Source of the DNA: Hydrogenophaga sp.
GTDB taxonomy: Bacteria; Pseudomonadota; Gammaproteobacteria; Burkholderiales; Burkholderiaceae_C
NCBI GenBank assembly: GCA_020048405.1
Contig: JAIFMP010000106.1
Span: 1-38,592 of the forward strand
Length of the DNA: 38,592 bases
Direction: 5' to 3'
The first letter of the stretch is position 1. Every line of letters begins with the position of its first letter. The position numbers were made by a program, and so were the translations under genes. Of the stretch, positions 4,015 through 19,610 are shown piece after piece. The notes beneath the pieces were generated by a model. It saw nothing but the letters and a program-made list of their open reading frames with translations, was not told the origin of the DNA and made no database searches.

Positions 4015-6923
4015 CCGACCCCGTAAAGCCAGGCGAGGCCCTGAAATACAGCGTCAACCACGACAACGTAGACCCCGAATCCGTGCTGGGTCACCTCCTG
4101 TCGCTCATCAAGTCAGGCTCACGGGTTCTGGAGCTCGGGTGTGCCGCCGGCAGCATGACCCGCATACTTCACGAGCGCCACGGTTGCCAGGTCGACGGAT
4201 TAGAACTTGACCCCGTTTCCGCCGAACAGGCCCGCCCGTTTTGTTCCCGCTTGCTGATTGGCAACCTCGAAACCGTCCAGTGGGACGGCCCATTTTTCCA
4301 GGGCCAGCAATACGACCACATACTCATTGCGGACGTACTCGAGCACATGCGAGAGCCCGGTCAAGTCCTACGGGGTGTGTCAAACCTGCTGGCTTCTGGT
4401 GGGTCCATTCTGGTGTCCACCCCCAACATCAGCTTTGCAGGCGTGCAGGCTGCAATACAGGCTGGCTGGTTTCCCTACGCCCCCACCGGGTTGCTTGACC
4501 AGGGTCACGTCCACTTCTTCACGCGCTTCGAACTCGAAGCCCTCGTTCTGCAATGCGGGGGCGTCCCCGTTGAACGGCGTGCCGTCCATTGGGGCCCAAA
4601 TGACTCCGAATTCGCCTCCTACTGGGCCGAACTCACCCCTCAAGCCCAACAAACACTGCTGTCTTCGCCCGATGCAACCGTGTACCAGTGGGTTGTTTCC
4701 ATAGAGCGCCCGTCTGAAAAAACTTGGCGACGCTGCGTGATGTTTGCCCCCGAGCGTGCGTTGTACAGCCAAAAATGGGGCCAACTCGTCCAGCAAGTCA
4801 ACACACTCCAGCAAGAGCTCGAAGCTGGCCATCAACGCGCGCTCGGCATGCTGGACAGCGTCAAACAGCTTCGGTTGCGACAGTATGAATTAGAGAGGCA
4901 ACTCATCACCCAACAACAGCAAGCCCACACTGCAACAGCGAAGTTGGAGCAAGTCTTCACATCCACCAGCTGGCGTCTCACAGCCCCCGTGCGCAATGCC
5001 AGAGCAACAGCCTCCCGCTGGCGCACCAACGCAAGCTTGCTTGCCAAGTCACTTCGTACCCAAGGGGTTGCTCCCACGCTGCTCAAGGTCGTCAAAAAAC
5101 TTGCGAGCCACCAGGCACCCACAGTCCCGGTCGGCGCCCCCACGTCTGAATTGTTTCAGCCTGATTGGGCTGCCTACAGGGACTGGCTCAACCAATACGA
5201 GCAATTGCCTTCAGACGGTACTGACCAAGTTGCCGTGGCCCTGCAAACCGCTGGCAACTGGCCCACCTTCAGTGTCATCATGCCGGTGTTCAACCCCAAT
5301 TTGGTGTGGCTGCTCCAGGCAATTGAATCAGTCCGTCAGCAGTGGTACCCGCACTGGCAACTCATCATCGTTGACGACGCCAGCACCCAGCAGCGCCAAG
5401 AACTCATGGCCCTGCTGGAGCGCAAGTCAGCCGATGACCCGCGCATCCGCGTCACCTACCGCGAGTCAAACGGGCACATTTCCCGTGCAACCAACGACGG
5501 CCTGAACCACTCAACCAGCGACTGGGTCACCTTCATCGACCAGGACGACACACTCGCACCTCATGCCCTGTGGTGTTTGGCAGATGCCATACGCCAAAAC
5601 CCAGTCGCAAAGCTCGTTTACTCGGACGAAGACAAAATAAATGAGACCGGTTCACGGCTCGAGCCCCACTTCAAACCCGACTGGAACCCGGACCTTCTCC
5701 TCTCCTACAACTACATATGCCACTTGGCGGCCTACCGTCGCCACGTTATGTTGGAGGTGGGTGGACTTCGCCCAGGCTTCGAAGGCGCACAAGACTTCGA
5801 CCTTGCCCTCCGCTTCACCGAACAGTGCACGCCTGCTGAAATTGTCCATGTCCCACGGCTGCTCTACCACTGGCGCGTGCACCAGGGCAGCACCTCCAGC
5901 AGTCTTGGTGTCAAGCCCTACGCCATGCAAGCTGGCGTACTGGCGCTGGAACAAGCCTTGCAGCGCCGCAGCGTGGTCGGGTCGGTTCACATCGACCATG
6001 ACCTCGCCTTCCAGGTCAAGTACGACATCACGGCTACTCCCCCACACGTCACGCTGGTCGTCCCTACTCGCAATGGCGGCAACCTGCTCAAAACCTGTAT
6101 CAGCAGTGTTCTCGCGCTGACCGACTACACCCACTTCGACATCCTCATCATCGACAACGGATCCGACCAACCTCACACTCTGGGCCTGTTGCAAGACTAC
6201 GCCGCACATCCCCGCTGCAGCGTTGTCAAAGACCCTCGGCCCTTCAACTACGCCGCGCTCCACAATGCAGCCATACCGGCAGCCAAAGGAGACTTCGTCT
6301 TGCTGCTCAATGACGACATCCAAGTCACCCAACCCGACTGGCTGCGTGAAATGGTCTCTGTCGGCTTGCAACCCGGCGTAGGCATCGTGGGTGCGCGCTT
6401 GCTCTACCCCAACAACGCCGTACAGCATGGAGGTACCGTCATGGTCGGGGGCGTGGCTGGCCACGCCCACAAGCACTTCCCGGCCAGTCATTGGGGCTAC
6501 ATGATGCGCGCCCGCGTCCGCCAAACCCTGTCTGCCGTCACCGCCGCGTGTTTGTTGGTTCGCAAAGAGGTCTACCAGCAAGTCGGCGGCATGGACGAAA
6601 CCCTGGCTGTGGCGTTCAACGACGTGGCCTTTTGCCTGGCCGTCGGCGCCGCCGGGTATCGCATCGTCTGGACGCCATACGCTGAGCTCGTCCACCACGA
6701 GTCAGCTACCCGTGGCCACGAGCATGTCGACCCGGCCAGGGTTGAGCGCTTCAACCGCGAAATCAAATACATGCAGGCGACATGGGGCAGCCAGTTGGCT
6801 TACGACCCGGCATGGAACCCCAACTTGAACAACATGCGCGAAGACTTCGCACTGGCACACCCACCTCGTTTGAAGCCCTTGTTTCCAGGTATCCAAGTTC
6901 CCACAGAGCCCGGCAATGTCTAA
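4011..6923 (+). CDS. multidomain methyltransferase plus two GT2 glycosyltransferase domains
   Basis: Probable TTG start inside a TTGA overlap. VLELGCAAGSMTRIL and ILIADVLEHMREPGQVL (methyltransferase); FSVIMPVFNPN...IIVDDAST...FIDQDDTL (GT2 #1); VTLVVPTRNGG...DILIIDNGSDQ...LLLNDDIQV (GT2 #2). Confidence 0.85.
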   Translation: MTDPVKPGEALKYSVNHDNVDPESVLGHLLSLIKSGSRVLELGCAAGSMTRILHERHGCQVDGLELDPVSAEQARPFCSRLLIGNLETVQWDGPFFQGQQYDHILIADVLEHMREPGQVLRGVSNLLASGGSILVSTPNISFAGVQAAIQAGWFPYAPTGLLDQGHVHFFTRFELEALVLQCGGVPVERRAVHWGPNDSEFASYWAELTPQAQQTLLSSPDATVYQWVVSIERPSEKTWRRCVMFAPERALYSQKWGQLVQQVNTLQQELEAGHQRALGMLDSVKQLRLRQYELERQLITQQQQAHTATAKLEQVFTSTSWRLTAPVRNARATASRWRTNASLLAKSLRTQGVAPTLLKVVKKLASHQAPTVPVGAPTSELFQPDWAAYRDWLNQYEQLPSDGTDQVAVALQTAGNWPTFSVIMPVFNPNLVWLLQAIESVRQQWYPHWQLIIVDDASTQQRQELMALLERKSADDPRIRVTYRESNGHISRATNDGLNHSTSDWVTFIDQDDTLAPHALWCLADAIRQNPVAKLVYSDEDKINETGSRLEPHFKPDWNPDLLLSYNYICHLAAYRRHVMLEVGGLRPGFEGAQDFDLALRFTEQCTPAEIVHVPRLLYHWRVHQGSTSSSLGVKPYAMQAGVLALEQALQRRSVVGSVHIDHDLAFQVKYDITATPPHVTLVVPTRNGGNLLKTCISSVLALTDYTHFDILIIDNGSDQPHTLGLLQDYAAHPRCSVVKDPRPFNYAALHNAAIPAAKGDFVLLLNDDIQVTQPDWLREMVSVGLQPGVGIVGARLLYPNNAVQHGGTVMVGGVAGHAHKHFPASHWGYMMRARVRQTLSAVTAACLLVRKEVYQQVGGMDETLAVAFNDVAFCLAVGAAGYRIVWTPYAELVHHESATRGHEHVDPARVERFNREIKYMQATWGSQLAYDPAWNPNLNNMREDFALAHPPRLKPLFPGIQVPTEPGNV

Positions 6924-9381
6924 ATCCCCACGCAGCGGGCGTCCAAAAACGCCCGTTGGCCACCCATCTACCCCGCCCCCTGTGCCCACGCTCACCGTGG
7001 CGTATCAGGATGCTCTCGCAAAACATCGTCTGGGTCAGCTTGCCCATGCCCAGCAACTCTACAACCAAGTTCTTGCAGTCGATCCACAGCACTTCGGTGC
7101 GGCCCACATGCTTGGGGTGTTGTTGTATCAGCTCGGCCAACACCAGCAAGCCCATGGCTACTTGAACAGGGCACTGCAAATCGACCCAAAATCGCCCGCT
7201 GCTCACACCAACATGGGGCTGGTGCTCGGTGCAGTCGGGCGTCACGATGATGCTTTGCGCTGCCACGATCAGGCTTTGAAGCTACATCCCGATTTTGTGG
7301 AGGCCTGGATCAACAGGGGAGGGGCGCTCAAGGAACTGCGGCGCTGGTCTGATGCCTTGCACAGCTACGACCAAGCCTTGCAACGCCGTCCAGCAGCTCC
7401 CCAGATCGAACTCAACCGCAGCATCGTACTGTTCGAGATCGGAAACACCACAGAGGCACTGGCCATTCTCGATCAGCTCATTGAAATACACCCGGGCTTT
7501 CTGCAAGCGCGTTACCAGCGTGGCAGTGCTTTCATTGACCTTGAACGATTTTCCGAGGCTCAAAACGACCTGGATCACGTTGTCCAGTCCGCTCCAGATT
7601 TCGCAGACGCGTGGGTTCAAAAAGCCCACCTGTGCAAGCGCTTGAACAAACTCGATGATTCATTGGTCTGCATCGATCATGCATTGTCAATAGCCCCCGC
7701 CAAGGCCAAGGCACACTTCATCAAAGGTCAGTTGCTGAAGACTTTAGGTGAATGGCTTGAAGCCATTCAGTGCTTCAGCAATGCGCTCCTTGTGGAGCCT
7801 GAAAATGCAGTCTATTTATTCCATCGAGGAGTGCTATATGCAATGATGGGCGAAAAAGCCAAATCACTCGATGATTTGGATCACGCATTGCAGGTGGACC
7901 CCTCTTTCATCCAGGCATACATTGGTCGCTCTAGCCTCTTGAGTTATGCGCGTATGTTTCCGGATGCGCTGGCTGATTTATTGCGAGCAAGAGAACTGAG
8001 TTCCGGTGGAAAAAGCCACCAAATTTCATCTTTCATTCTCAAGGTTAAATCCCATTTGTGTGACTGGTCAGACTGGGGTATTCTGCAGCAGGAGTTGATC
8101 ACGGAAGTGTATTCGAGTGCCATCTCTTATGGCTCATTTGCACTTCTCTCGCTGACAGATGACCCAAGCCTCCATCTCCATGCGGCAAAGAGTCAAGGCA
8201 ATGTGCTTTCGTCTTTAAGTGACCGACTTGGTACGATCAAGCCGAAAGACGGAGTTGAAAAAATCCGTGTCGGCTACTATTCTGCCGATTATTCACAACA
8301 CGCCACAATGATCCTGATGGCGGAGTTGTTTGAGCTGCATGACCGCCAAGGCTTCGAGTGGTACGCCTTTTCCTTTGGCGAGCCAGACCAAACCGACCCC
8401 ATGTACCGTCGTGCCCATGTCGCGTTTGATCGCTTCATTGATGTGCGTGGTTTGTCCCCGTTGGAAATAGCCAAACTGTCCCGGGAACTTCAAATCGATA
8501 TCGCTGTTGATCTGAAGGGTGATACCGAAGACTCACGCTCGTCAATTTTTGCCTATCGGGCAGCACCGATACAGGTCAATTACCTCGGGTATCCGGGCAC
8601 CATGGGCACCACCTATCACGACTACATCATTGCCGATGCCTGGGTCGTACCAGATTCCCTCAAAGAGCATTACACCGAAAAGGTGGTCCGTTTACCCAAC
8701 AGTTATCAGGTCAATGACAGAAAGCGCCAAATCTCTGACCGGCCATTTTCCCGCAAAGACTGTGGCCTCCCGGAACAAGGTGTTGTTTACGCATGCTTCA
8801 ATGCCGTCCACAAAATCACGCCGGAGGTCTTTGCCAGTTGGATGCGAATCCTCTTGGCAGTGCCAGAAAGTGTTCTGTGGCTCTTTGAGGGCAACCAATG
8901 GGCGCCCAGCAACTTGCGCAGCCAGGCAGAACTGCACGGCATCGATCCTCAGCGGTTGATCTTTGCTCCAACCATGTTCCACCCCGACCACTTGGCGCGC
9001 CTTCAACTGGTCGATTTGTTTTTGGACACCTTGCCCTACAACGCGCACACCACTGCCAGCGACGCCTTGTGGGCAGGCGTACCTGTGCTCACGCGAATGG
9101 GCCAATCCTTCGCAGCAAGGGTCGCAGCGAGCCTGTTATCTGCCGTGGGCTTGCCTGAATTGATCACCCAAACGCCCGAAGAGTACGGAACCTTGGCCAT
9201 AGATTTAGGGCAGCACCCTGCTCGCCTGCACTCTTTAAAACAGCGCCTTCAAATCCTCCGCAGCAGCGCACCGCTATTTGACACGCCTCAATTCGCCAGA
9301 CACCTGGAGTCCGCATTCCGGCTGATGGTGCAGCGCCAGCAAACGGGTCTCCCGCCCGATCACTTTGACATCGAGTCCTGA
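6916..9381 (+). CDS. TPR-repeat O-GlcNAc-transferase-like (GT41/SPINDLY) protein 1
   Basis: N-terminal TPR repeats; C-terminal IRVGYYSADYSQHATMILMAELFELHDR, AVDLKGDTEDSR, IQVNYLGYPGTMG, NAHTTASDALWAGVPVLT. Confidence 0.85.
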   Translation: MSKSPRSGRPKTPVGHPSTPPPVPTLTVAYQDALAKHRLGQLAHAQQLYNQVLAVDPQHFGAAHMLGVLLYQLGQHQQAHGYLNRALQIDPKSPAAHTNMGLVLGAVGRHDDALRCHDQALKLHPDFVEAWINRGGALKELRRWSDALHSYDQALQRRPAAPQIELNRSIVLFEIGNTTEALAILDQLIEIHPGFLQARYQRGSAFIDLERFSEAQNDLDHVVQSAPDFADAWVQKAHLCKRLNKLDDSLVCIDHALSIAPAKAKAHFIKGQLLKTLGEWLEAIQCFSNALLVEPENAVYLFHRGVLYAMMGEKAKSLDDLDHALQVDPSFIQAYIGRSSLLSYARMFPDALADLLRARELSSGGKSHQISSFILKVKSHLCDWSDWGILQQELITEVYSSAISYGSFALLSLTDDPSLHLHAAKSQGNVLSSLSDRLGTIKPKDGVEKIRVGYYSADYSQHATMILMAELFELHDRQGFEWYAFSFGEPDQTDPMYRRAHVAFDRFIDVRGLSPLEIAKLSRELQIDIAVDLKGDTEDSRSSIFAYRAAPIQVNYLGYPGTMGTTYHDYIIADAWVVPDSLKEHYTEKVVRLPNSYQVNDRKRQISDRPFSRKDCGLPEQGVVYACFNAVHKITPEVFASWMRILLAVPESVLWLFEGNQWAPSNLRSQAELHGIDPQRLIFAPTMFHPDHLARLQLVDLFLDTLPYNAHTTASDALWAGVPVLTRMGQSFAARVAASLLSAVGLPELITQTPEEYGTLAIDLGQHPARLHSLKQRLQILRSSAPLFDTPQFARHLESAFRLMVQRQQTGLPPDHFDIES

Positions 9382-9395
9382 ATCAACTGCCAACA

Positions 9396-11780
9396 ATGAA
9401 GATCGATTTCAGCAAACAACCCAGACTCGTTCAGTGGAATGTCCCATTTCAGCAAGTCGCCAAACCGTCATTGGATACTCTGCTGGCCCAGGCTGCACAG
9501 CATGTAGCCAATGGAGACGTTCGTTCAGCCCATGCCCTGTTGGTCAAGGCGGTGGAGGGCTATCCGCCTGATCCGCGTCCCTATCGCGAGTTGGCCCGCC
9601 TGGCCGAGGCGCTGGGGCGGTACGAAAACGCGCTCGCCTGCCACGATCAGGCACTCGCCCTGCAAGCCAGCCACGCGCCCACAATGTTGGCAAAAGCCCA
9701 GACATTGATTCAATTGGCAAAATGGGACGACGCAAAACAGGTCGTTTGTCAAGTGCTCAACGCATCAGACGGCAACCCTGAAGCGTTGGTTTTGTTGGCC
9801 GGCCTAGAGCACCAAGCGGGAGACAGGGCCACCGCCGAAAATCACCTCCGTTCTGTCCTGCGTGCGCAGCCTGCGCACGCAGGGGCGCTCAATGCCCTCG
9901 GCAAACTTCAGTTGGCCAGCGGCGATCGTCTCGGCGCACTGCAATCCTTTGAGCTGTCGACCCAATCCGATCCGGCGCAGCCTGAGCCGTGGATCAATCT
10001 CGGCGTTACCCTCATTGCCACAGGTGCCAAGCGAGAAAAAGCGTTGGACTGCTATCGCCGTGCCCTGCAGCTTGATCCAAAGCAACCTGACGCGCACTTC
10101 AACCTAGGCACCGCCTTGTTTGCTGGCAAGGCATACAAAATTGCGGCCTACCATCTACAGCAAGCCATTGCCGCCAGGCCCACCCATGAACAGGCATACA
10201 TCAACTTGGCTGTGGGCCTCAACGCAGTCATGCAGTTCAACCCTGCCTTGCAGGTTTGCGAGCGGGGCCACAAAATCTGCGGCGATACCCCCGCTTTGTG
10301 GGCAAGCAAAGCCGAGTCTCTCGCCAACTTGGGCCGCCACCTCGAGGCCATAGACGCAGCACACAAGTCCATCAGTCTTGGGTATCCCGCGGCCGATTTA
10401 TGTGCACAGCTGGCCGCTTGGCATCGAACCCTGTGCAATTGGACGGTTGAAGGCAGTGACGCGAATGACTGGCGCAACTGGATTGCCGAGGGTTTGAAGG
10501 TAAATCCCTTCACATTGCTCTCCATCGACGACGACCCATTCGTTCAAAAGACCGCTGCAACACAGTCTGTCGAGGCCTTTCAATCACTGTCAAGTCCCCC
10601 GCAGCCTGATCGTGCCGTGCGTATTCACACCAAGCTTCGAGTGGGGTACATCTCGCCCGATTTTCGGAGCCACCCCATCATGACCATCTTGGCCACGGTG
10701 TTCGAGGCACATGACCGCGCTGCGTTCGAGTGGTATGCATTTTCCCTTGTTGCAGCCCCACAAGATCCAGCACAAATCCAGGCGCAAGCCACGTTCGATC
10801 ACTTTCTGGACGTCAGTGAATGGTCTGATGAAGAGATAGTCGTTCAGGCCAGAGAGTTGCAGATTGACGTCATGGTTGATTTGGCTGGCCATACCCATGG
10901 AAGTCGCATGTCGGCATTGGCCATGCGCTGCGCGCCAGTGCAAGTCACCTACATTGGTTACCCCGGCACCACAGCCACCCCAAACATTGACTACCTCTTT
11001 GGCAGCCCGGTAGTTACCCCTGCAGGCAGTGAGTCGTGGATGACCGAGCAGCCGGTTCAGCTGCCTTGGCTGGTTCCCATCTCGCCTCGCCGGGTGTCTG
11101 AGCATGTATGGACGCGTGCTGAGGCGGGTTTGCCTGCAGATGCTTTCGTGTACTGCAGTTTCAATAACAACTACAAATTCACCCCCGAAATGTTCAGTGC
11201 GTGGGCGCGTATCCTGCTTCAGGTCCCCGGCAGCATTTTGTGGCTCTATGCCAAAACGCCTCAGGTGCAAGCCAGTTTGCGCAGCGAAGCTCAGGCCCGT
11301 GGTCTCAACCCTGATCGCCTCGTTTTCGCCGGCTCCGTCCCCATGCCTGACTACCTGGCCCGAATGCGCTTGGCCGACCTGTTTTTGGATACCCACCCCT
11401 ACAATGCCCACACAACGGCACTGGATGCAGTCTGGGTGGGTTTGCCTGTGCTGACATTCACTGGCTCGTCCTTCGTCAGTCGCATGGCGGCTGGTGTCCT
11501 GTCGTCCATTGGCATGGACGATCTGATTGCCACCAGCCTGCAAGATTACGAGGCCCGTGCAGTTGCCATCGGCCTGGGCCTCAAGCCCCTTGCCCCATTG
11601 CGTCAACAACTGCTCAATCCAGCCACAAGAGCCACTCCGCCCTTTGATGCCACGGCATTTGCTCGCCTCCTTGAAGCCGCCTACACGGCCATGCATCAAA
11701 GGGCCACCGCGGGTGAAGCACCAGCCCCCCTGCGCATTGATGCCCAAGGCAGGCCAACATTCGGTCCCTTCATGGAATAA
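9396..11780 (+). CDS. TPR-repeat O-GlcNAc-transferase-like (GT41/SPINDLY) protein 2
   Basis: TPR repeats; LRVGYISPDFRSHPIMTILATVFEAHDR, MVDLAGHTHGSRMSALAMRCAPVQVTYIGYPGTT, YNAHTTALDAVWVGLPVLT. Confidence 0.85.
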   Translation: MKIDFSKQPRLVQWNVPFQQVAKPSLDTLLAQAAQHVANGDVRSAHALLVKAVEGYPPDPRPYRELARLAEALGRYENALACHDQALALQASHAPTMLAKAQTLIQLAKWDDAKQVVCQVLNASDGNPEALVLLAGLEHQAGDRATAENHLRSVLRAQPAHAGALNALGKLQLASGDRLGALQSFELSTQSDPAQPEPWINLGVTLIATGAKREKALDCYRRALQLDPKQPDAHFNLGTALFAGKAYKIAAYHLQQAIAARPTHEQAYINLAVGLNAVMQFNPALQVCERGHKICGDTPALWASKAESLANLGRHLEAIDAAHKSISLGYPAADLCAQLAAWHRTLCNWTVEGSDANDWRNWIAEGLKVNPFTLLSIDDDPFVQKTAATQSVEAFQSLSSPPQPDRAVRIHTKLRVGYISPDFRSHPIMTILATVFEAHDRAAFEWYAFSLVAAPQDPAQIQAQATFDHFLDVSEWSDEEIVVQARELQIDVMVDLAGHTHGSRMSALAMRCAPVQVTYIGYPGTTATPNIDYLFGSPVVTPAGSESWMTEQPVQLPWLVPISPRRVSEHVWTRAEAGLPADAFVYCSFNNNYKFTPEMFSAWARILLQVPGSILWLYAKTPQVQASLRSEAQARGLNPDRLVFAGSVPMPDYLARMRLADLFLDTHPYNAHTTALDAVWVGLPVLTFTGSSFVSRMAAGVLSSIGMDDLIATSLQDYEARAVAIGLGLKPLAPLRQQLLNPATRATPPFDATAFARLLEAAYTAMHQRATAGEAPAPLRIDAQGRPTFGPFME

Positions 11781-11816: not shown

Positions 11817-12467
11817 GTGTCAGTGATCGTGCGTCAACTGCTGTGTGTCTGTGCGCTTTGTACGGTCATGCCTGCCCAAGCCACAGCCTTGTGGACCTAT
11901 GTCGACGCGCAAGGGGTCACCCACATCGGCAACGTGTCTCCGCCAAACACACGTCAAATCGAATGGTTGGCGGGAAAACCCTCTAGACCATCCTTTCGCC
12001 AAACAGGCGCTGATGGAGCTGCACCACATCGATGGCCAAGATACGCTGAGGTTCGGCCTCTGCTAGAGGCTGCTGCCCGTATGCACGACGTTGATCCAGC
12101 TCTCGTCACCGCAGTTGCAGCAGCCGAGTCTGGGTTCAACGCCAATGCCGTATCGCGCAAAGGGGCGTTGGGGTTGATGCAAATCATGCCTGATACCGGT
12201 GCCCGTTATGGGCTCGGTACCGACAAGCGCTTGGTGTCGGATGCCTTGGTGCAAAACCCGGGGCTCAATGCACAGATCGGCGCTAACTACTTGGCCGACT
12301 TGTTGAGGCAGTTCAACGGCGAGCTTGAGTTGGCCGTTGCAGCCTACAACGCGGGCGAAGGTGCTGTGCTTCGTCATGGCAAAAAAGTACCACCTTACCC
12401 TGAAACGCAGCAATACGTTTCAAACGTCATCCAGCTATACAACAAATTCGGGCCACTCAAACCCTGA
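11817..12467 (+). CDS. lytic transglycosylase (SLT domain) with DUF4124-like N-terminus
   Basis: Signal-like N-terminus, LWTYVDAQGVTHIGNV, then DPALVTAVAAAESGFNANAVSRKGALGLMQIMPDTGARYGL and AAYNAGEGAV. Confidence 0.85.
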   Translation: MSVIVRQLLCVCALCTVMPAQATALWTYVDAQGVTHIGNVSPPNTRQIEWLAGKPSRPSFRQTGADGAAPHRWPRYAEVRPLLEAAARMHDVDPALVTAVAAAESGFNANAVSRKGALGLMQIMPDTGARYGLGTDKRLVSDALVQNPGLNAQIGANYLADLLRQFNGELELAVAAYNAGEGAVLRHGKKVPPYPETQQYVSNVIQLYNKFGPLKP

Positions 12468-12505: not shown

Positions 12506-14572
12506 GTGAATTTTTCAGTATTCCCCAGGGCACTTCGGCAGCCCATGATATTTGCTACGTTGATGGCCATTGGTGCAGCCCTTTTGTATTCCACCGGCCT
12601 GACACACAGGCTTATTTTCGATGATGGATGGGCCACCAGAAACCCAGCCATACTCTCTGCCCCCATCTCACTCGGTTTACAGCTTCGCAACCTGTCCTTG
12701 GCCAGCTTCCAGTTCATCTTTCAGTGGGTGGGCCCGGAGTTGCAATGGCAGCGGATGTTCAACATCGTTATCCACATCATCAATGGATGGCTGCTGTGGA
12801 CACTGAGCTTGGCTTTGCTGCGCCGCGCACTGAGTCAAGAGGCGTCGGCTGCCGATGCATCATTTCCAACTGAGCCCCGTCAATCGCCTGACCCAAGCCT
12901 GGTATCAGTGGCAGCGCCCGTGGCCGTTGGTCTTTGGTTGCTCAATCCCGTGGCTGTGTACGCGGTCCAATACCTCACCCAGCGCTCATCCCTGCTGGCC
13001 ACCTGCTTTGTACTGATTGGGTTGTTGGCTTTTATCAGGGCTTTACAGGCCCAGTCCGTAGTCGCACGCGCGCTATGGGGGGCAGCCGTGCTGGCAGCAT
13101 GCGCTCTGGCAATCATGTCCAAGGAGCACGCAGCACCAATGGTTGCGGCACTGCTGCCGCTCTATGTTTTTTGGAAGCGGCCCCCGCCTCGTCATCTATG
13201 GACGGCTGGCGTTGTGGCATTGGTCGTATCTGTACTCGCTGCAACCGCGCTTCTCAGCCGTAAGGGGTTTGCGCTTGGGCTGTTATATGAAGATCTCGCA
13301 GCTTCGTTTCTGCAGCAACTCAACGCTATTCGTCCTGAAGCAACAGAGAATGCTTACTCGCTAAGCATCATTAACCAACTCTGGCTATTCTTTCAGTATG
13401 GGGCGATATGGAACCTTCCTTGGCCGGGCTGGATGAGCATAGACGTCCGCCCCCCATTTCCTATGCAAGCCCACGCATTTCCGCACATCTTGGGCCCGGT
13501 CCTCTGGCTTTCGGCCGTTTGTGCTTCAATTTGGGCGCTGTTGGCAAAGTCCGGGCGCTTAGCGTTGCTTGGGTTACTCTTCCTAATCCCCTCCGCTTTT
13601 TTCCTCACTGAACTGGCCTACGTACGCTTGCAGGAACCTTTCGTGCTGTACCGCAGTTACTTGTGGTCAATTACGCTACCTGCGGTTTGGGCTATTTTGC
13701 TAGTCACGCTTATTGAAACCAAATGGCGGTTGGTGGCAGCAGGCGTGGCAATTTCCCTAGCGTGTGCTGCTGTGTCTTTCGAGCGCATACAAACACTTTA
13801 CGACGAAACAACCGCTTGGCGTGATGCGGTCGATAAGCTCGACTTGAGCGCGTCACCAAGTACTTTGGGCCGTTGGCGCGCGCCCCTCAATCTATCTCGC
13901 GCCGATCTCGTCAAAGGCAACTATCAGGAAGCGTTGCGCCACGCCCAACTGGCCGAAAAGCTCGGTGCGCCAAACGGCATGGCCCAATTCAATTCGGGCA
14001 ACGCATTGCTGGCACTGAGGCAGCCCAAGCAAGCGTTGCACTATTTTCAATTGGCCCAGAGCAAAGGCTACAGTGAGCCTGAGATTTGGATGTCCTTGGC
14101 CGCGTCGCTAGACCAACTCGGCCAGACGAGTGAAGCCATCTCTGTCTATGACCAAGCATTGGCCTCGCCGTTGCAGCCGCAGAACCGCCTCTTGGTGTTG
14201 CAACAGGTGGCCCGTTTGGCCAATGCTGTCGGCCGCTTTGACAATGCAAAAAGATATTACCAACAAATGCTGAGTTTGCAGCCAAACTTACCCGTCGCAT
14301 GGTTAGGGCTGGCCCATTCAAGCTTTCGTGCTGGCCAAATCCAGCCTGCGCTGGATACTCTAACCACTGCCATCTCTAAGCAACCACTGGCAGAGTTTTT
14401 TCATGCGAGGGGAATGTTGTATGCCCAGGTCGGTCAGCGTCAGCAGGCCCTGCAAAACCTGGCCGAAGCCGCAGCACGCGAACCCACCAACCCCACCTAC
14501 CAATCCGCACTGAAAGAACTGCAGAACCAACTTAAGCCCTCTGCCGGTGAGGTGTCACTTAAGAAGAAGTAA
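12506..14572 (+). CDS. polytopic membrane protein with C-terminal TPRs, putative GT-C/TMTC-like glycosyltransferase (copy 1)
   Basis: LIFDDGW in the first loop, QRMFNIVIHIINGWLLWTL, NPVAVYAVQYLTQRSSLLATCFVLIGLLAF, MSKEHAAP, then TPR-like repeats. Confidence 0.6.
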   Translation: MNFSVFPRALRQPMIFATLMAIGAALLYSTGLTHRLIFDDGWATRNPAILSAPISLGLQLRNLSLASFQFIFQWVGPELQWQRMFNIVIHIINGWLLWTLSLALLRRALSQEASAADASFPTEPRQSPDPSLVSVAAPVAVGLWLLNPVAVYAVQYLTQRSSLLATCFVLIGLLAFIRALQAQSVVARALWGAAVLAACALAIMSKEHAAPMVAALLPLYVFWKRPPPRHLWTAGVVALVVSVLAATALLSRKGFALGLLYEDLAASFLQQLNAIRPEATENAYSLSIINQLWLFFQYGAIWNLPWPGWMSIDVRPPFPMQAHAFPHILGPVLWLSAVCASIWALLAKSGRLALLGLLFLIPSAFFLTELAYVRLQEPFVLYRSYLWSITLPAVWAILLVTLIETKWRLVAAGVAISLACAAVSFERIQTLYDETTAWRDAVDKLDLSASPSTLGRWRAPLNLSRADLVKGNYQEALRHAQLAEKLGAPNGMAQFNSGNALLALRQPKQALHYFQLAQSKGYSEPEIWMSLAASLDQLGQTSEAISVYDQALASPLQPQNRLLVLQQVARLANAVGRFDNAKRYYQQMLSLQPNLPVAWLGLAHSSFRAGQIQPALDTLTTAISKQPLAEFFHARGMLYAQVGQRQQALQNLAEAAAREPTNPTYQSALKELQNQLKPSAGEVSLKKK

Positions 14573-14612
14573 TGCCTCAAATTCAAGCAATTCCATTCGG
14601 GTAGATTTCATC

Positions 14613-16640
14613 ATGATAGACACCAAGCGATTTTCCCAACTGGCCACGGCGTTTGCACTTGTCGCGGGTTTGGTGGGGCTGTATTCGTTGGGCCTGCATG
14701 CCAAACTCATTTTCGATGACGCTTGGATACGCATTGACGCCCAACGCCTTGTCGCTCCGGTATCGCTGCAACTCGACTTCCGTAGCTTGTTTTGGGCGAG
14801 TTTCCAAATCGTTCACCAATACATCGGGCAGGATTTGGTTTGGCAGCGGGCTTTCAACGTTTTTTTACATATAACCAATACCCTGTTGCTGTGGAGGTTG
14901 ACGGCTGTCTTGATGGGCAAGGCTTTGTCTGAGCAGGCAGCCAGACAGCAAAACAATCCTGGCAGTGTGTTCACCGCCATGCTTCAGCACAAGTCACTTC
15001 TCCACACGGCGGTGCCCGTCGCAGTTATCGCGTGGGCTTTCAATCCGGTGGCTGTCTACGCTGTGCAATACCTTATCCAGCGGACAACGCTGCTTGCAAC
15101 CATGTTTCTGCTCGTGTCCTGGCTCACATTCATCGGGGCATTTCAGGCACAGACCTCAGTACGCAAGTTGGCCCTTTGGGTCATCATGGGTGCGGCCTAT
15201 GTTCTGGCCGTCATGTCCAAGCAGCATGCAGCTCCTGGCATTGCCATCTTGCTGCCCATATTTGTCTTTTGGCGCCGCCCTTCTCGCTGTGATCTCGCGG
15301 TGGTGGGTAGCATTTTGGTCGGCGCCATTGCATTGGCAGCCGCTTGGACGGTTTACAAAGGTGGTTGGGCCCTGGGCACATTCACTGAGCCATTGGTTGG
15401 CCCCTTCCTGCAGCAACTCGAAGTGTTGCAACCCGGGGCGGGTCAGCAGGTTTATGCGCTGAGTGTGGTCAATCAGTTGTGGCTGTTCTTTCGCTACGGG
15501 ATTCACTGGCTCCTGCCTTGGGTGGGATGGCTGAGCATTGACATTCGTCCCACGTTCCCACTCAGTGCACATGCCTTCCCGCACGTGCTCGGTGCCGTGC
15601 TATTTTGCGTTGCGGTCTCGGCCTCTGTTTGGGTGGTGGCCAGGCAGCGCGGCATCGCGTCGTTGGCGGGGCTGGCTTTTCTGGTACCCGCTACTCTGTT
15701 CACCACCGAACTCGCCTTTGTCCGTCTTCAAGAGCCCTTTGTCCTTTACCGCAGTTACCTGTGGTCTGTTTCTCTCCCCGTCTTTTGGGCGCTTGCGCTA
15801 CTTGCTGTGTTCAGCCAACGCAAATGGCTCTATGCGGCAGGATTGGGGTTGGCGGTGGGTTTTGGTCTGCAGGCCCATGACCGCATCAAGAGCATGAGAG
15901 ACGATCCCACCGTATGGCAAGACGCGCTGGCCAAAACCAACACCAATGCCCCTGTCAACGCAATGGGTCGCTGGCGCGCACCACACAATTTAGCCCGGTG
16001 GGATTTGACGGAGGGCCGATACCAAGATGCATTGGCACACGCTCGGTTGGCAGACCAACTCGGCGCGCCTGATGGTTTGGCCAAATCCAAAATGGGCTTT
16101 GCACTCGTCGCGCTCCGTCGGCCTCAGGAGGCTTTGCCTCTGTTGATAGCAGCCAAAACTGAAGGATTTCTCAACCCAGAGCTATGGATTGCGATTGGCA
16201 GCGCCCTTGATCAAATGAACCGTGTTGACGAGGCGTTCGAAGCTTACGATCGCGCACTAAGTTCCAATTTATCAATCGACTATCGACCTAGAGCCCTTTT
16301 GGCGGCGGGCTACTTAGCCAACCGTACAGCGCAATACAAAAAGGCTGAGGGCTATTTTTCAGAGTTACATCGTATTCAGCCCACTGCCCCTGATGCTATC
16401 GTTGGTTTGGGCTTAAGCAAAGTGAAACAAGGTGCCGCAAAAGAGGCCTTGGACATTGTGACACAGGCTATTGCGCGCAAACCGCATGCGGAGCTTTTTT
16501 TCTTTCGTGCTCAGGTCAATTTCCATTTGCATAATCAGAAATCGGCCAACGAGGATGTGTTGGCGGCGCTTGCGCGAGATCCTCGAAACTTAGAATATAT
16601 AGGGTTTAAGGACCACATTCAGACTTCTTTGCGAAAGTAA
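14613..16640 (+). CDS. polytopic membrane protein with C-terminal TPRs, putative GT-C/TMTC-like glycosyltransferase (copy 2)
   Basis: Colinear with the preceding gene: LIFDDAW, QRAFNVFLHITNTLLLWRL, NPVAVYAVQYLIQRTTLLATMFLLVSWLTF, MSKQHAAPG, FVRLQEPFVLYRSYLWS. Start MIDTKRFSQL chosen. Confidence 0.6.
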   Translation: MIDTKRFSQLATAFALVAGLVGLYSLGLHAKLIFDDAWIRIDAQRLVAPVSLQLDFRSLFWASFQIVHQYIGQDLVWQRAFNVFLHITNTLLLWRLTAVLMGKALSEQAARQQNNPGSVFTAMLQHKSLLHTAVPVAVIAWAFNPVAVYAVQYLIQRTTLLATMFLLVSWLTFIGAFQAQTSVRKLALWVIMGAAYVLAVMSKQHAAPGIAILLPIFVFWRRPSRCDLAVVGSILVGAIALAAAWTVYKGGWALGTFTEPLVGPFLQQLEVLQPGAGQQVYALSVVNQLWLFFRYGIHWLLPWVGWLSIDIRPTFPLSAHAFPHVLGAVLFCVAVSASVWVVARQRGIASLAGLAFLVPATLFTTELAFVRLQEPFVLYRSYLWSVSLPVFWALALLAVFSQRKWLYAAGLGLAVGFGLQAHDRIKSMRDDPTVWQDALAKTNTNAPVNAMGRWRAPHNLARWDLTEGRYQDALAHARLADQLGAPDGLAKSKMGFALVALRRPQEALPLLIAAKTEGFLNPELWIAIGSALDQMNRVDEAFEAYDRALSSNLSIDYRPRALLAAGYLANRTAQYKKAEGYFSELHRIQPTAPDAIVGLGLSKVKQGAAKEALDIVTQAIARKPHAELFFFRAQVNFHLHNQKSANEDVLAALARDPRNLEYIGFKDHIQTSLRK

Positions 16641-16674
16641 AACGTAAGTGGTAGGCCTTGGCGTAAAGCGGAAA

Positions 16675-18606
16675 ATGCGGATTTTCATCGGCACATTTTT
16701 ATATGTACTGGTATCAGGGCTATTGCTTCAGTTTTTGATATTGCCAAATACACCGTGGTATGCAGGCGACGGCCTGTTGATTGGGGGGGATTGGAATAGT
16801 TTCCATCGACTTGCGATCGACTTGAGTCAAAAGATAGTAAGCAATGGTTGGGGGGAATGGGAGATCAGCGTTGCTGGGCAAGCGCCCGCAAGCGTTGCAG
16901 CCGCTTTTTATGCGATAACAGATATCAGGCATCCGTCGATATTATTGCCACTTCATGGTGTTTTGTATGGGATATCGGTTGTTGCATTGTATTCAATAAT
17001 GTCAAAATTGAACGGCAATCGTATGGCGCCGATAACGGTGCTGTTGCCATTTTATGTATTCCCGTCGACTGCCATGATATGGGGGCAAATTCATAAAGAC
17101 ATATACAGCATCATGGGTATTTTTCTCGTGCTCAGATTATGGGTGATTGTATGGGAATTGTATGTGAATAAGACGAAATACAGTCATATTTTATACGCTT
17201 TTGATATTGCTGCAATGCTGCTTGGTCTACTTGTGATACACTTCGTGCGGCCTTATCTGGCCGAAGTGGTTATTTTGGCTAGTTTGGCCGTCGTATTTGT
17301 GGTGGCCGTGCTTGTTTTTGCTCAAAGATTGAGGGTTGTAGATAATCTGGCAAAAGCAAGCGCACAAAAAGTCAAATTCATTTTTATCCTTGGATTGTCA
17401 TTTGGGTTGCTGGCCATTTTGGTTCCGGATTTATCTGGCAAAATCAATAAATTTACTCCATGGGAATTAATATATTATAAGGGTAATTACTCATCCAAAA
17501 TCTCACAAGATGAAACAACGGATTTGACTTCACATCGTTTGCCCATCGCCCTTGCTGCCATGCGGGCGGGCTATGACGTTCACATTGCAACGGGCATTAC
17601 AGACAAGCACGCAGAAATGAAAGCCCACGGGCTCAAGGTTCACCCTTTGCCGTTGGTGCGCGGTGGCGTGGGTGTAGTCAATGCGGCCCACACCGCCTGG
17701 TGTTTGTTGCGTGTCGTCAAAGCTGTTCGGCCAGATGTAATGCACCTGGTCACCATTAAGCCAGTGTTGTTGGGCGGGCTGGTGGCAAGGGTGCTGCGGG
17801 TGCCCGCTTTGGTGTCGGCCGTATCTGGGTTGGGGTATGTGTTCATGGCGCAAGGCTTGGCAGCCAAGCTGCGTTTGCATGTTGTGCGGCGTGTGTACGC
17901 ATGGGCTTTGGGGCACGCCAACCAACTGGTCATTTTTCAGAACCCTGACGATATGATTGCGCTGCAAGTCGCCACTGGTTTGCAATCTCGTAAGGCCGTC
18001 CTCATTCGCGGCTCAGGTGTTAATTTGCAGCAGTACACGGTGCAGCCCGTGGCGTCCGGCAAACCGGTGGTGCTGTTCCCAGCAAGGTTGTTGGCCGATA
18101 AGGGCGCCTGCGAATTTGTTGCCGCTGCGCAGCAGCTTCGGGCCGAAGGTGTGCAGGCGCGTTTTGTCTTGGTCGGCTTGATGGATTCGGCAAATCCCAC
18201 CAGCCTGACGCAAGCGCAAGTTGACGCGTGGGTATCTGATGGCGTGGTGGAGCTCTGGGGCCACAGGGCAGACATGCCCGCAGTGCTGGCCAGCGCCACG
18301 GTGGTGGTGTTGCCGTCTTACCGTGAAGGCTTACCCAAAGTACTGCTGGAGGCGGCCGCATGTGGCCGGCCCGTGGTCACAACAGACGTGCCCGGCTGTC
18401 GCGATGCAATAGAGCCAGGGCAAACCGGCATGTTGGTGCCTGTGGGCAACAGCGCTAAATTGGCGAAAGCCATCGCTGCGTTATTGCAAAACCCAAAGCA
18501 ATGCAACGCCATGGGCCAAGCAGGCAGAGCTTTGGCCGAGCGCGAGTTTGACGTGCAAGCCGTCGTCAACAAGCATTTGGCCATTTACGAGCAGCTATTG
18601 GCATGA
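16675..18606 (+). CDS. chimeric ORF: N-terminal O-antigen-type polytopic membrane protein fused in frame to a GT4 glycosyltransferase lacking its first residues
   Basis: N-terminal ~280 residues are hydrophobic and AT-rich. From SHRLPIALAAMRAGYDVHIATG the sequence is a canonical GT4 (HLVTIKPVLLGG, SGLGYVF, FQNPDD, LIRGSGVNL, LPSYREGLPKVLLEAAACGRPVVTTDVPGCRDAI). Confidence 0.75.
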   Translation: MRIFIGTFLYVLVSGLLLQFLILPNTPWYAGDGLLIGGDWNSFHRLAIDLSQKIVSNGWGEWEISVAGQAPASVAAAFYAITDIRHPSILLPLHGVLYGISVVALYSIMSKLNGNRMAPITVLLPFYVFPSTAMIWGQIHKDIYSIMGIFLVLRLWVIVWELYVNKTKYSHILYAFDIAAMLLGLLVIHFVRPYLAEVVILASLAVVFVVAVLVFAQRLRVVDNLAKASAQKVKFIFILGLSFGLLAILVPDLSGKINKFTPWELIYYKGNYSSKISQDETTDLTSHRLPIALAAMRAGYDVHIATGITDKHAEMKAHGLKVHPLPLVRGGVGVVNAAHTAWCLLRVVKAVRPDVMHLVTIKPVLLGGLVARVLRVPALVSAVSGLGYVFMAQGLAAKLRLHVVRRVYAWALGHANQLVIFQNPDDMIALQVATGLQSRKAVLIRGSGVNLQQYTVQPVASGKPVVLFPARLLADKGACEFVAAAQQLRAEGVQARFVLVGLMDSANPTSLTQAQVDAWVSDGVVELWGHRADMPAVLASATVVVLPSYREGLPKVLLEAAACGRPVVTTDVPGCRDAIEPGQTGMLVPVGNSAKLAKAIAALLQNPKQCNAMGQAGRALAEREFDVQAVVNKHLAIYEQLLA

Positions 18607-19563
18607 CGGCGCACTGCAAACGTGTGTTAGTCACGGGTGGCACAGGGTTTGTGGGCGGTGCAGTGGTGCAGGCGTTGACTCGCAAGAGTGGCGTAGAGCC
18701 TGTAGCTGCAGTGCGTGCCCGTCTCACGGATGATGGCAACCCTTTGCCCGCGCACCACGTGGTTCTGGGCAATCTGGACGAGCATACGCCTTGGGGCGCC
18801 GCACTGGCAGGTGTGGATGCGGTCATCCACACAGCCGCGCGTGTGCATGTGACGAACGACCAAGCGGCTGACCCACTGTCAAAATTCAGGCGTGTGAACG
18901 TGTCAGGCACCTTGAACCTCGCGCGCCAGGCAGCGGCTGCGGGTGTGAAGCGGTTGGTGTTTGTCAGTTCCATCAAGGTCAACGGCGAGCGTACCTTGCA
19001 AGGCAAACGGTTCAAGCCAGACGATGCGTGCATGCCGCAAGACCCCTATGGCCTTTCCAAATACGAAGCTGAGGTGGGACTGCGTGCGGTGGCAGCAGAA
19101 ACCGGGCTGGAGGTAACCATAGTTCGCCCCCCATTGGTGTACGGACCCGGTGTAAAGGCCAACTTTGCAGCCATGGTGAGTTGGCTCAGCAGGGGTGTAC
19201 CGCTCCCTCTGGGTGCGGTGGTACACAACCGCCGCAGTCTGGTGGCGCTGGATAATTTGGTTGACTTGCTACTGGTATGTGCAACGCACCCGGCGGCGGC
19301 CAACCAGACTTTTTTGGTCAGCGATGACGAAGACGTGTCCACTGCCGACCTGTTGCGCCGCATTGGGCAAACCTGCAAGGCTGCTGCCAGTGCCAGTGGT
19401 GGTGCTGGAATTGGGTGCCGCTGCCGTGGGCAAGGCAGATATGGCGCAGCGCTTGCTCAGCAACTTGCAGCTGGACATTTCCAGAACCAGGCAAGTGCTG
19501 GGCTGGCAACCGCCTGTGTCTTTGGACGAAGGCTTAAGGCGCACTGCTTCTGCCTTTATATAG
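18603..19563 (+). pseudogene. NAD-dependent epimerase/dehydratase (UDP-sugar 4-epimerase type), frameshifted near 19365-19375
   Basis: VLVTGGTGFVGGAVVQAL, FVSSIKVNGE, YGLSKYEAE, IVRPPLVYGPGVKANF in one frame. The expected C-terminus PARLLPVPVVVLELGAAAVGKADMAQRLLSNLQLDISRTRQVLGWQPPVSLDEGLRR is in another frame (ORF 19195..19563). Confidence 0.75.
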
Positions 19564-19610
19564 TCCTTTTCAACAAGCCACTCTTTCTTTTTTAGAGTTG
19601 GTAACTCGTT

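Follow-up and report, generated by a model that had tools for sequence, protein, structure and literature searches.

Two adjacent genes, here called GTC1 and GTC2, lie in the same direction in a 38,592-nucleotide stretch of Hydrogenophaga sp. DNA (contig JAIFMP010000106.1; the whole stretch is referred to as the window). They encode proteins, 44% identical to each other, in which a multi-spanning membrane body is followed by a C-terminal tail of tetratricopeptide repeats (TPRs). That both are periplasmic GT-C glycosyltransferases, dependent on polyprenyl-phosphate-sugars and with their TPRs also in the periplasm, is a well-supported reading of the predicted models (features in Table 1). The tandem had been singled out at 12506-16640 from the letters alone (the original prediction), and both open reading frames (ORFs) are indeed present there and open. 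The blocks quoted for the two products, LIFDD-W, NPVAVYAVQYL-QR, MSK-HAAP and VLYRSYLWS, are all found, as are the TPR tails, which TPR models match in both proteins. GTC2 probably starts at ATG 14613 instead of GTG 14547, because the alignment of relatives begins at the former. GTC1 and GTC2 are the only full copies in the genome, two weaker matches corresponding to the TPR parts of OGT-like genes.

Of the genomes searched, 19 out of 251 in the family and 36 out of 300 in the order hold relatives of the pair; numerous named Comamonadaceae, Thiobacillaceae, Rhodocyclaceae and others have them as well. Conservation was assessed in an alignment of 60 sequences, 27-49% identical to GTC1, the residues of which are used for numbering. 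F38, D39, D40, R61, H90, P148, Y152, R160, K206 and S287 are invariant, and so are, further along, P305, E369, Q376, V380-R383, Y385 and W387. Since FDD, R61, R160, K206, R383 and Y385 never vary, and relatives occur in many genomes, the alignment indicates that the quoted blocks are not chance resemblances. TPR models match all of the 25 family members scanned. A wider bacterial group, with the HPxHVEAVAWVxERKE and FEHRNYLP types and in many cases TPR matches too, is homologous across the whole membrane body (hhalign 99.9%, E 3e-33, the score obtained with the distant TPR-GT-C group A4).

The membrane body of the window proteins is covered by no curated domain model. Scans of each protein with Pfam and NCBIfam yielded nothing noteworthy beyond TPRs, and searches of PDB sequences returned TPR matches only with full-length queries, and nothing credible with the body. 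PMT_2 (PF13231) weakly matches 32 of the 60 aligned members (best E 4.8e-6), the GTC1 body not being among them. The predicted AlphaFold models are confident (pLDDT 90.6 for the full length, 90.9 for the body alone). The body was modelled separately because Foldseek searches with the full-length model were swamped by TPR proteins, the tail matching the OGT TPR superhelix. Searched alone, the body matched ArnT (5f15), Pmt4 (9i5k, TM-score 0.50) and Pmt1-Pmt2 (6p25), each at a probability of 1.00, with ALG9 also among the GT-C matches; transporters were interspersed among these, at probabilities no higher than 0.33 and TM-scores near 0.2. The GT-C core proposed in the original prediction was thus recovered, ArnT, Pmt4 and Pmt1-Pmt2 being on top. 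The proteins combine several features of the GT-C superfamily, i.e. the predicted GT-C fold, a multi-spanning core, a large first extracytoplasmic loop, and an acidic D-D motif in this loop. The assignment is made because the GT-C matches agree with one another, PMT_2 recurs among relatives and the motifs are in place, the E-values being modest.

Transmembrane (TM) segments were placed from model helices and hydrophobicity with TMTC proteins as a guide, and the resulting 11-TM layout, the exact topology of which is a prediction, is not independent of the comparison with TMTC. In this layout 37 of 46 highly conserved body positions fall in predicted periplasmic loops, none in cytoplasmic ones, and the TPR tail is periplasmic. 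A non-catalytic membrane scaffold, or an enzyme of another class, for example related to peptidoglycan, is hardly credible, the catalytic positions of GT-C being strictly conserved on the outer face and the best fold matches being GT-C enzymes, even if the body lacks a curated model and a gene for an SLT lytic transglycosylase is found near GT-C genes in 9 of 80 relatives' loci, three from Tepidimonas among them.

TMTC1-4 are transmembrane O-mannosyltransferases of the GT-C/PMT clan that target cadherins. The TMTC-like layout originally proposed is supported by the models: as in TMTC1-4, the body has 11 TM helices, and DD, R, KE, D and R..Y follow one another in loops 1 to 5, D in the loop between TM7 and TM8, in the same order and in the same loops as motifs M1, M3, M4, M5 and M7 (PMC7801869); the TPR tail, extracytoplasmic in TMTC1-4, is also directed outwards in the predicted topology. 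In contrast, the RxD of loop 2 and the DW of loop 4 are not kept, the window family featuring R followed by S/T and I/T/S in the former and SID-x-R in the latter. ERxxY is retained only in part, as R..Y, GTC2 has KQ for KE, and the window proteins are bacterial. DUF1736 (PF08409) matches neither GTC1 nor GTC2. A PF08409 search of the genome itself was also negative, a result saying little on absence from bacteria, since the control genomes were matchless too. The window proteins agree with TMTCs in most of the features that structure and motifs allow to be compared. They are nevertheless not assigned to TMTC proper, since DUF1736 is unmatched and several motifs are kept only in part. TMEM260 is of the DUF2723 type, and general domain scans list no DUF2723 match for the window proteins. 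TMEM260 is an O-mannosyltransferase for plexins, from a separate family initiating protein O-mannosylation (PMC11292533).

Table 1. Coordinates of the GTC1/GTC2 pair, its motifs and the linked upstream genes in the window
Feature	Position	Strand	Remarks
OGT1: TPR + GT41 (O-GlcNAc transferase-like)	6916..9381	+	
OGT2: TPR + GT41	9396..11780	+	
SLT lytic transglycosylase (DUF4124 + SLT)	11817..12467	+	separates GT41 pair from GT-C pair
GTC1: GT-C glycosyltransferase + TPRs	12506..14572	+	688 amino acids; complete ORF, uninterrupted
GTC1 11-TM body	12506-13849	+	predicted model, TM layout
GTC1 FDD, extracytoplasmic loop 1 (catalytic DD of GT-C/TMTC M1)	12617..12625	+	60/60 relatives
GTC1 loop 2 block NPVAVYAVQYLTQR (R160 at site of R of TMTC M3)	12944..12985	+	
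GTC1 SKE, loop 3 (TMTC M4 KE; E = modelled metal ligand, PMC7801869)	13118..13126	+	K 60/60, E 59/60
GTC1 SIDVR, loop 4 (site of TMTC DW, M5, DUF1736 loop)	13436..13450	+	D 59/60
GTC1 VLYRSYLW, loop 5 (site of TMTC ERxxY, M7)	13643..13666	+	R and Y 60/60
GTC1 periplasmic C-terminal TPR array, six to seven helix pairs	13877..14533	+	TPR models, predicted helices
GTC2: paralogous GT-C + TPR protein	14613..16640	+	ORF from GTG 14547 = 697 amino acids; uninterrupted
GTC2 FDD	14712..14720	+	
GTC2 SKQ (Q for E in KE motif)	15216..15224	+	codon CAG at 15222-15224; sole case in 60 aligned
GTC2 VLYRSYLW, loop 5	15741..15764	+	

ArnT, the best Foldseek match of the body, is likewise a GT-C enzyme using a lipid-phosphate-sugar on the periplasmic side, and was also the best template for the modelling of TMTC (PMC7801869). 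It differs from the window proteins in acting on lipid A and in lacking a TPR tail, and is 14% identical to the body. The PMT family (Pmt1-Pmt2, Pmt4) is similar in fold, and carries a MIR domain where the window proteins have TPRs; neither PMT (PF02366) nor MIR models match the window proteins. PMT enzymes work as paralog pairs (PMC7759382).

Phylogenetic analysis groups GTC2 with the single copies of Tepidimonas and leaves GTC1 just outside (100/93 support); the duplication is therefore old, or GTC1 is fast-evolving. A recent duplication was considered and rejected, since long near-identical repeats are missing and the tree separates the copies. GTC2 is unique among the 60 aligned proteins in having Q at the position of E207, encoded by CAG vs. 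GAG in GTC1. In models of TMTC the glutamate of the KE motif binds the metal (PMC7801869). The KQ of GTC2 may mark an altered, specialised or partner subunit. A sequencing error is possible at this codon, because a single base separates CAG from a glutamate codon.

Outside the lineage of the window, the conserved partner of the GT-C gene is a fusion of GT4 and a GT2 resembling dolichyl-phosphate-mannose (Dol-P-Man) synthase, accompanied by DUF2304. The GT4-GT2 fusion is encoded within 10 kb of the GT-C gene in 52 of the 80 relatives' loci, directly downstream of the GT-C gene in 40, and DUF2304 in 29. The single PDB sequence match of the GT2 half is the Dol-P-Man synthase 5mlz, at a weak E of 0.0018. 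DUF2304 is the GacJ family; GacJ enhances the undecaprenyl-phosphate-N-acetylglucosamine synthase GacI, which acts before the polytopic transferase GacL (PMC8327497). As in GacI-GacJ-GacL and GtrA-GtrB-Gtr systems, a polyprenyl-phosphate-sugar synthase of the GT2 type, a small membrane protein (DUF2304 or GtrA) and a polytopic transferase are co-encoded in the relatives; unlike in these systems, the GT2 is fused to GT4, and the GT-C protein bears TPRs, the known Gac and Gtr acceptors being polysaccharides. In group A4 a Dol-P-Man-synthase-like GT2 lies directly beside the TPR-bearing GT-C gene in 5 of 27 loci, short as their flanks are, and also in Tepidimonas thermarum. In the latter (locus L170, contig C103) a GT4 and an unfused Dol-P-Man-synthase-like GT2 adjoin a second TPR-GT-C, of the distant type; the logic of the cassette is retained, but the genes are separate. 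GT2 linkage is thus found in both subfamilies, and a TPR-GT-C plus a polyprenyl-phosphate-sugar synthase appears to be their common logic. An ORF that, judged from its sequence, resembles mannose-1-phosphate guanylyltransferases follows the GT-C gene near the contig end in two Tepidimonas loci (L053, 12044-12508; L055, 12446-12742, with a transposase-like fragment at the same end), and is at most a lead towards mannose.

The function that we favour, with moderate confidence, is that GTC1 and GTC2 are inner-membrane GT-C enzymes built on the TMTC plan, which transfer single sugars from a polyprenyl-phosphate-sugar to an acceptor, probably a protein, held by the TPRs. Eleven TM helices would place on the periplasmic face an active site built from loops 1 to 5, where DD, R, KE, D and R..Y would serve the acceptor, the metal and the lipid phosphate. 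The periplasmic TPR superhelix would grip the acceptor, so that secreted proteins, or those of the envelope, would become O-glycosylated. In the majority of relatives, the making of the donor would fall to the adjacent GT4-GT2 fusion, with GacJ-like help from DUF2304. GTC1, retaining the complete catalytic set, and GTC2, as a specialised or partner subunit, would act together, in the manner of Pmt1-Pmt2 pairs. Fold, conserved motifs and gene linkage in relatives form the computed part of this explanation; to these we add, by inference, the exact topology, the sugar donor, the protein acceptor and the joint action of the pair.

Several observations weigh against this function. Foldseek matches the body to GT-C structures with weak E-values (best 3.4e-3). 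The genome of the window (93% complete, 181 contigs) has neither a close homolog of the GT4-GT2 partner nor DUF2304, searches retrieving no more than a generic GT2 (E 1e-8), and GtrA only below the cut-off. No candidate acceptor gene is linked to the pair, a scan for pilin motifs giving one unrelated match. The setting of the pair in the window, where an ABC-2 permease, Wzt, an initiating sugar transferase and a FlaA1-like dehydratase are also encoded, looks like a polysaccharide cluster, and also fits glycan decoration. The substrate decorated by GTC1 and GTC2 in the periplasm could accordingly be a polysaccharide, either O antigen or capsule, as in three-component systems of the Gtr/GT136 type, the TPR tail only scaffolding a biosynthetic complex. 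Both O antigens and cell wall polymers have known systems made up of a GT-C, a GT2 and a small membrane protein (PMC11127046, PMC8327497). We consider decoration of a polysaccharide rather unlikely, because the GT-C/GT4-GT2 cassettes of many other genera are flanked, as judged by eye, by varied and apparently housekeeping genes and not by an O-antigen cluster, and the TPR tail is a regular component of the scanned family members. O-antigen GT-C enzymes are not known to carry a TPR tail.

The original prediction had joined the pair to the two upstream OGT genes in a 2+2 array, and supposed a protein O-glycosylation system acting on both sides of the membrane. Similar arrays are found in Tepidimonas: the T. 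fonticaldi locus has two OGT genes (70% and 73% identity to the window pair), SLT and one GT-C, and that of isolate SKYG89 one OGT (65% identity) and one GT-C. A distant GT41 match (28%) in Azoarcus is the third and last case of GT41 within 10 kb of the GT-C gene among the 80 loci. Nor is GT41 commoner in genomes of the family endowed with GT-C (10 of 19) than in those lacking it (140 of 232). Because linkage is rare and co-occurrence missing, the array is a local feature of the lineage made up by the window and Tepidimonas, and is not supported as a general one. Thus, a cytoplasmic OGT pair and a periplasmic GT-C pair working in concert, as the arrays of the window, T. fonticaldi and SKYG89 might suggest, is highly improbable, the more so as T. 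thermarum (G235) has kept SLT and GT-C with no OGT at the locus or in the searched genome. In this locus (L054) a WecA-like gene resides between the lytic transglycosylase and GT-C genes, at 8847-9944.

Downstream of GTC2, the ORF spanning 16648-18606 joins a multi-TM N-terminal domain to a GT4 domain seemingly devoid of a normal start. Relatives of the N-terminal domain were not found near other GT-C loci, and the ORF is possibly a fusion, a deletion or an assembly chimera. The NAD-dependent epimerase gene at 18603-19595, immediately ahead of that of the initiating sugar transferase, may carry a frameshift, the last ~75 residues being seemingly out of frame.

The fold of GTC1 and GTC2 is an expected one; architecture and context are unusual, and denote a bacterial TMTC-like class. 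The literature searched yielded no paper about TPR GT-C enzymes of bacteria, and the data suggest that a eukaryote-style design for protein glycosylation is widespread yet unstudied in bacteria. Outside Actinobacteria, periplasmic protein O-glycosylation in bacteria mostly proceeds by transfer of whole oligosaccharides. Enzymes of the PglL type work in this way (PMC3643930). A bolder view, which we offer tentatively, is that TPR-tailed GT-C proteins, each with its own polyprenyl-phosphate-sugar synthase, make up a large unnamed bacterial class of TMTC type that adds sugars singly to proteins of the periplasm, with TMTCs as one eukaryotic branch of it, and GTC1 and GTC2 as a heteromer with one full and one altered site. 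If the favoured function is true, protein O-glycosylation would gain a new branch, which moves single sugars, depends on polyprenyl-phosphate and has a TPR arm for the substrate, and the TMTC design, a GT-C body with outward TPRs, would be widely used in bacteria and approachable in easily grown Comamonadaceae, where the linked GT4-GT2 and DUF2304 genes would point experimenters to the donor pathway.

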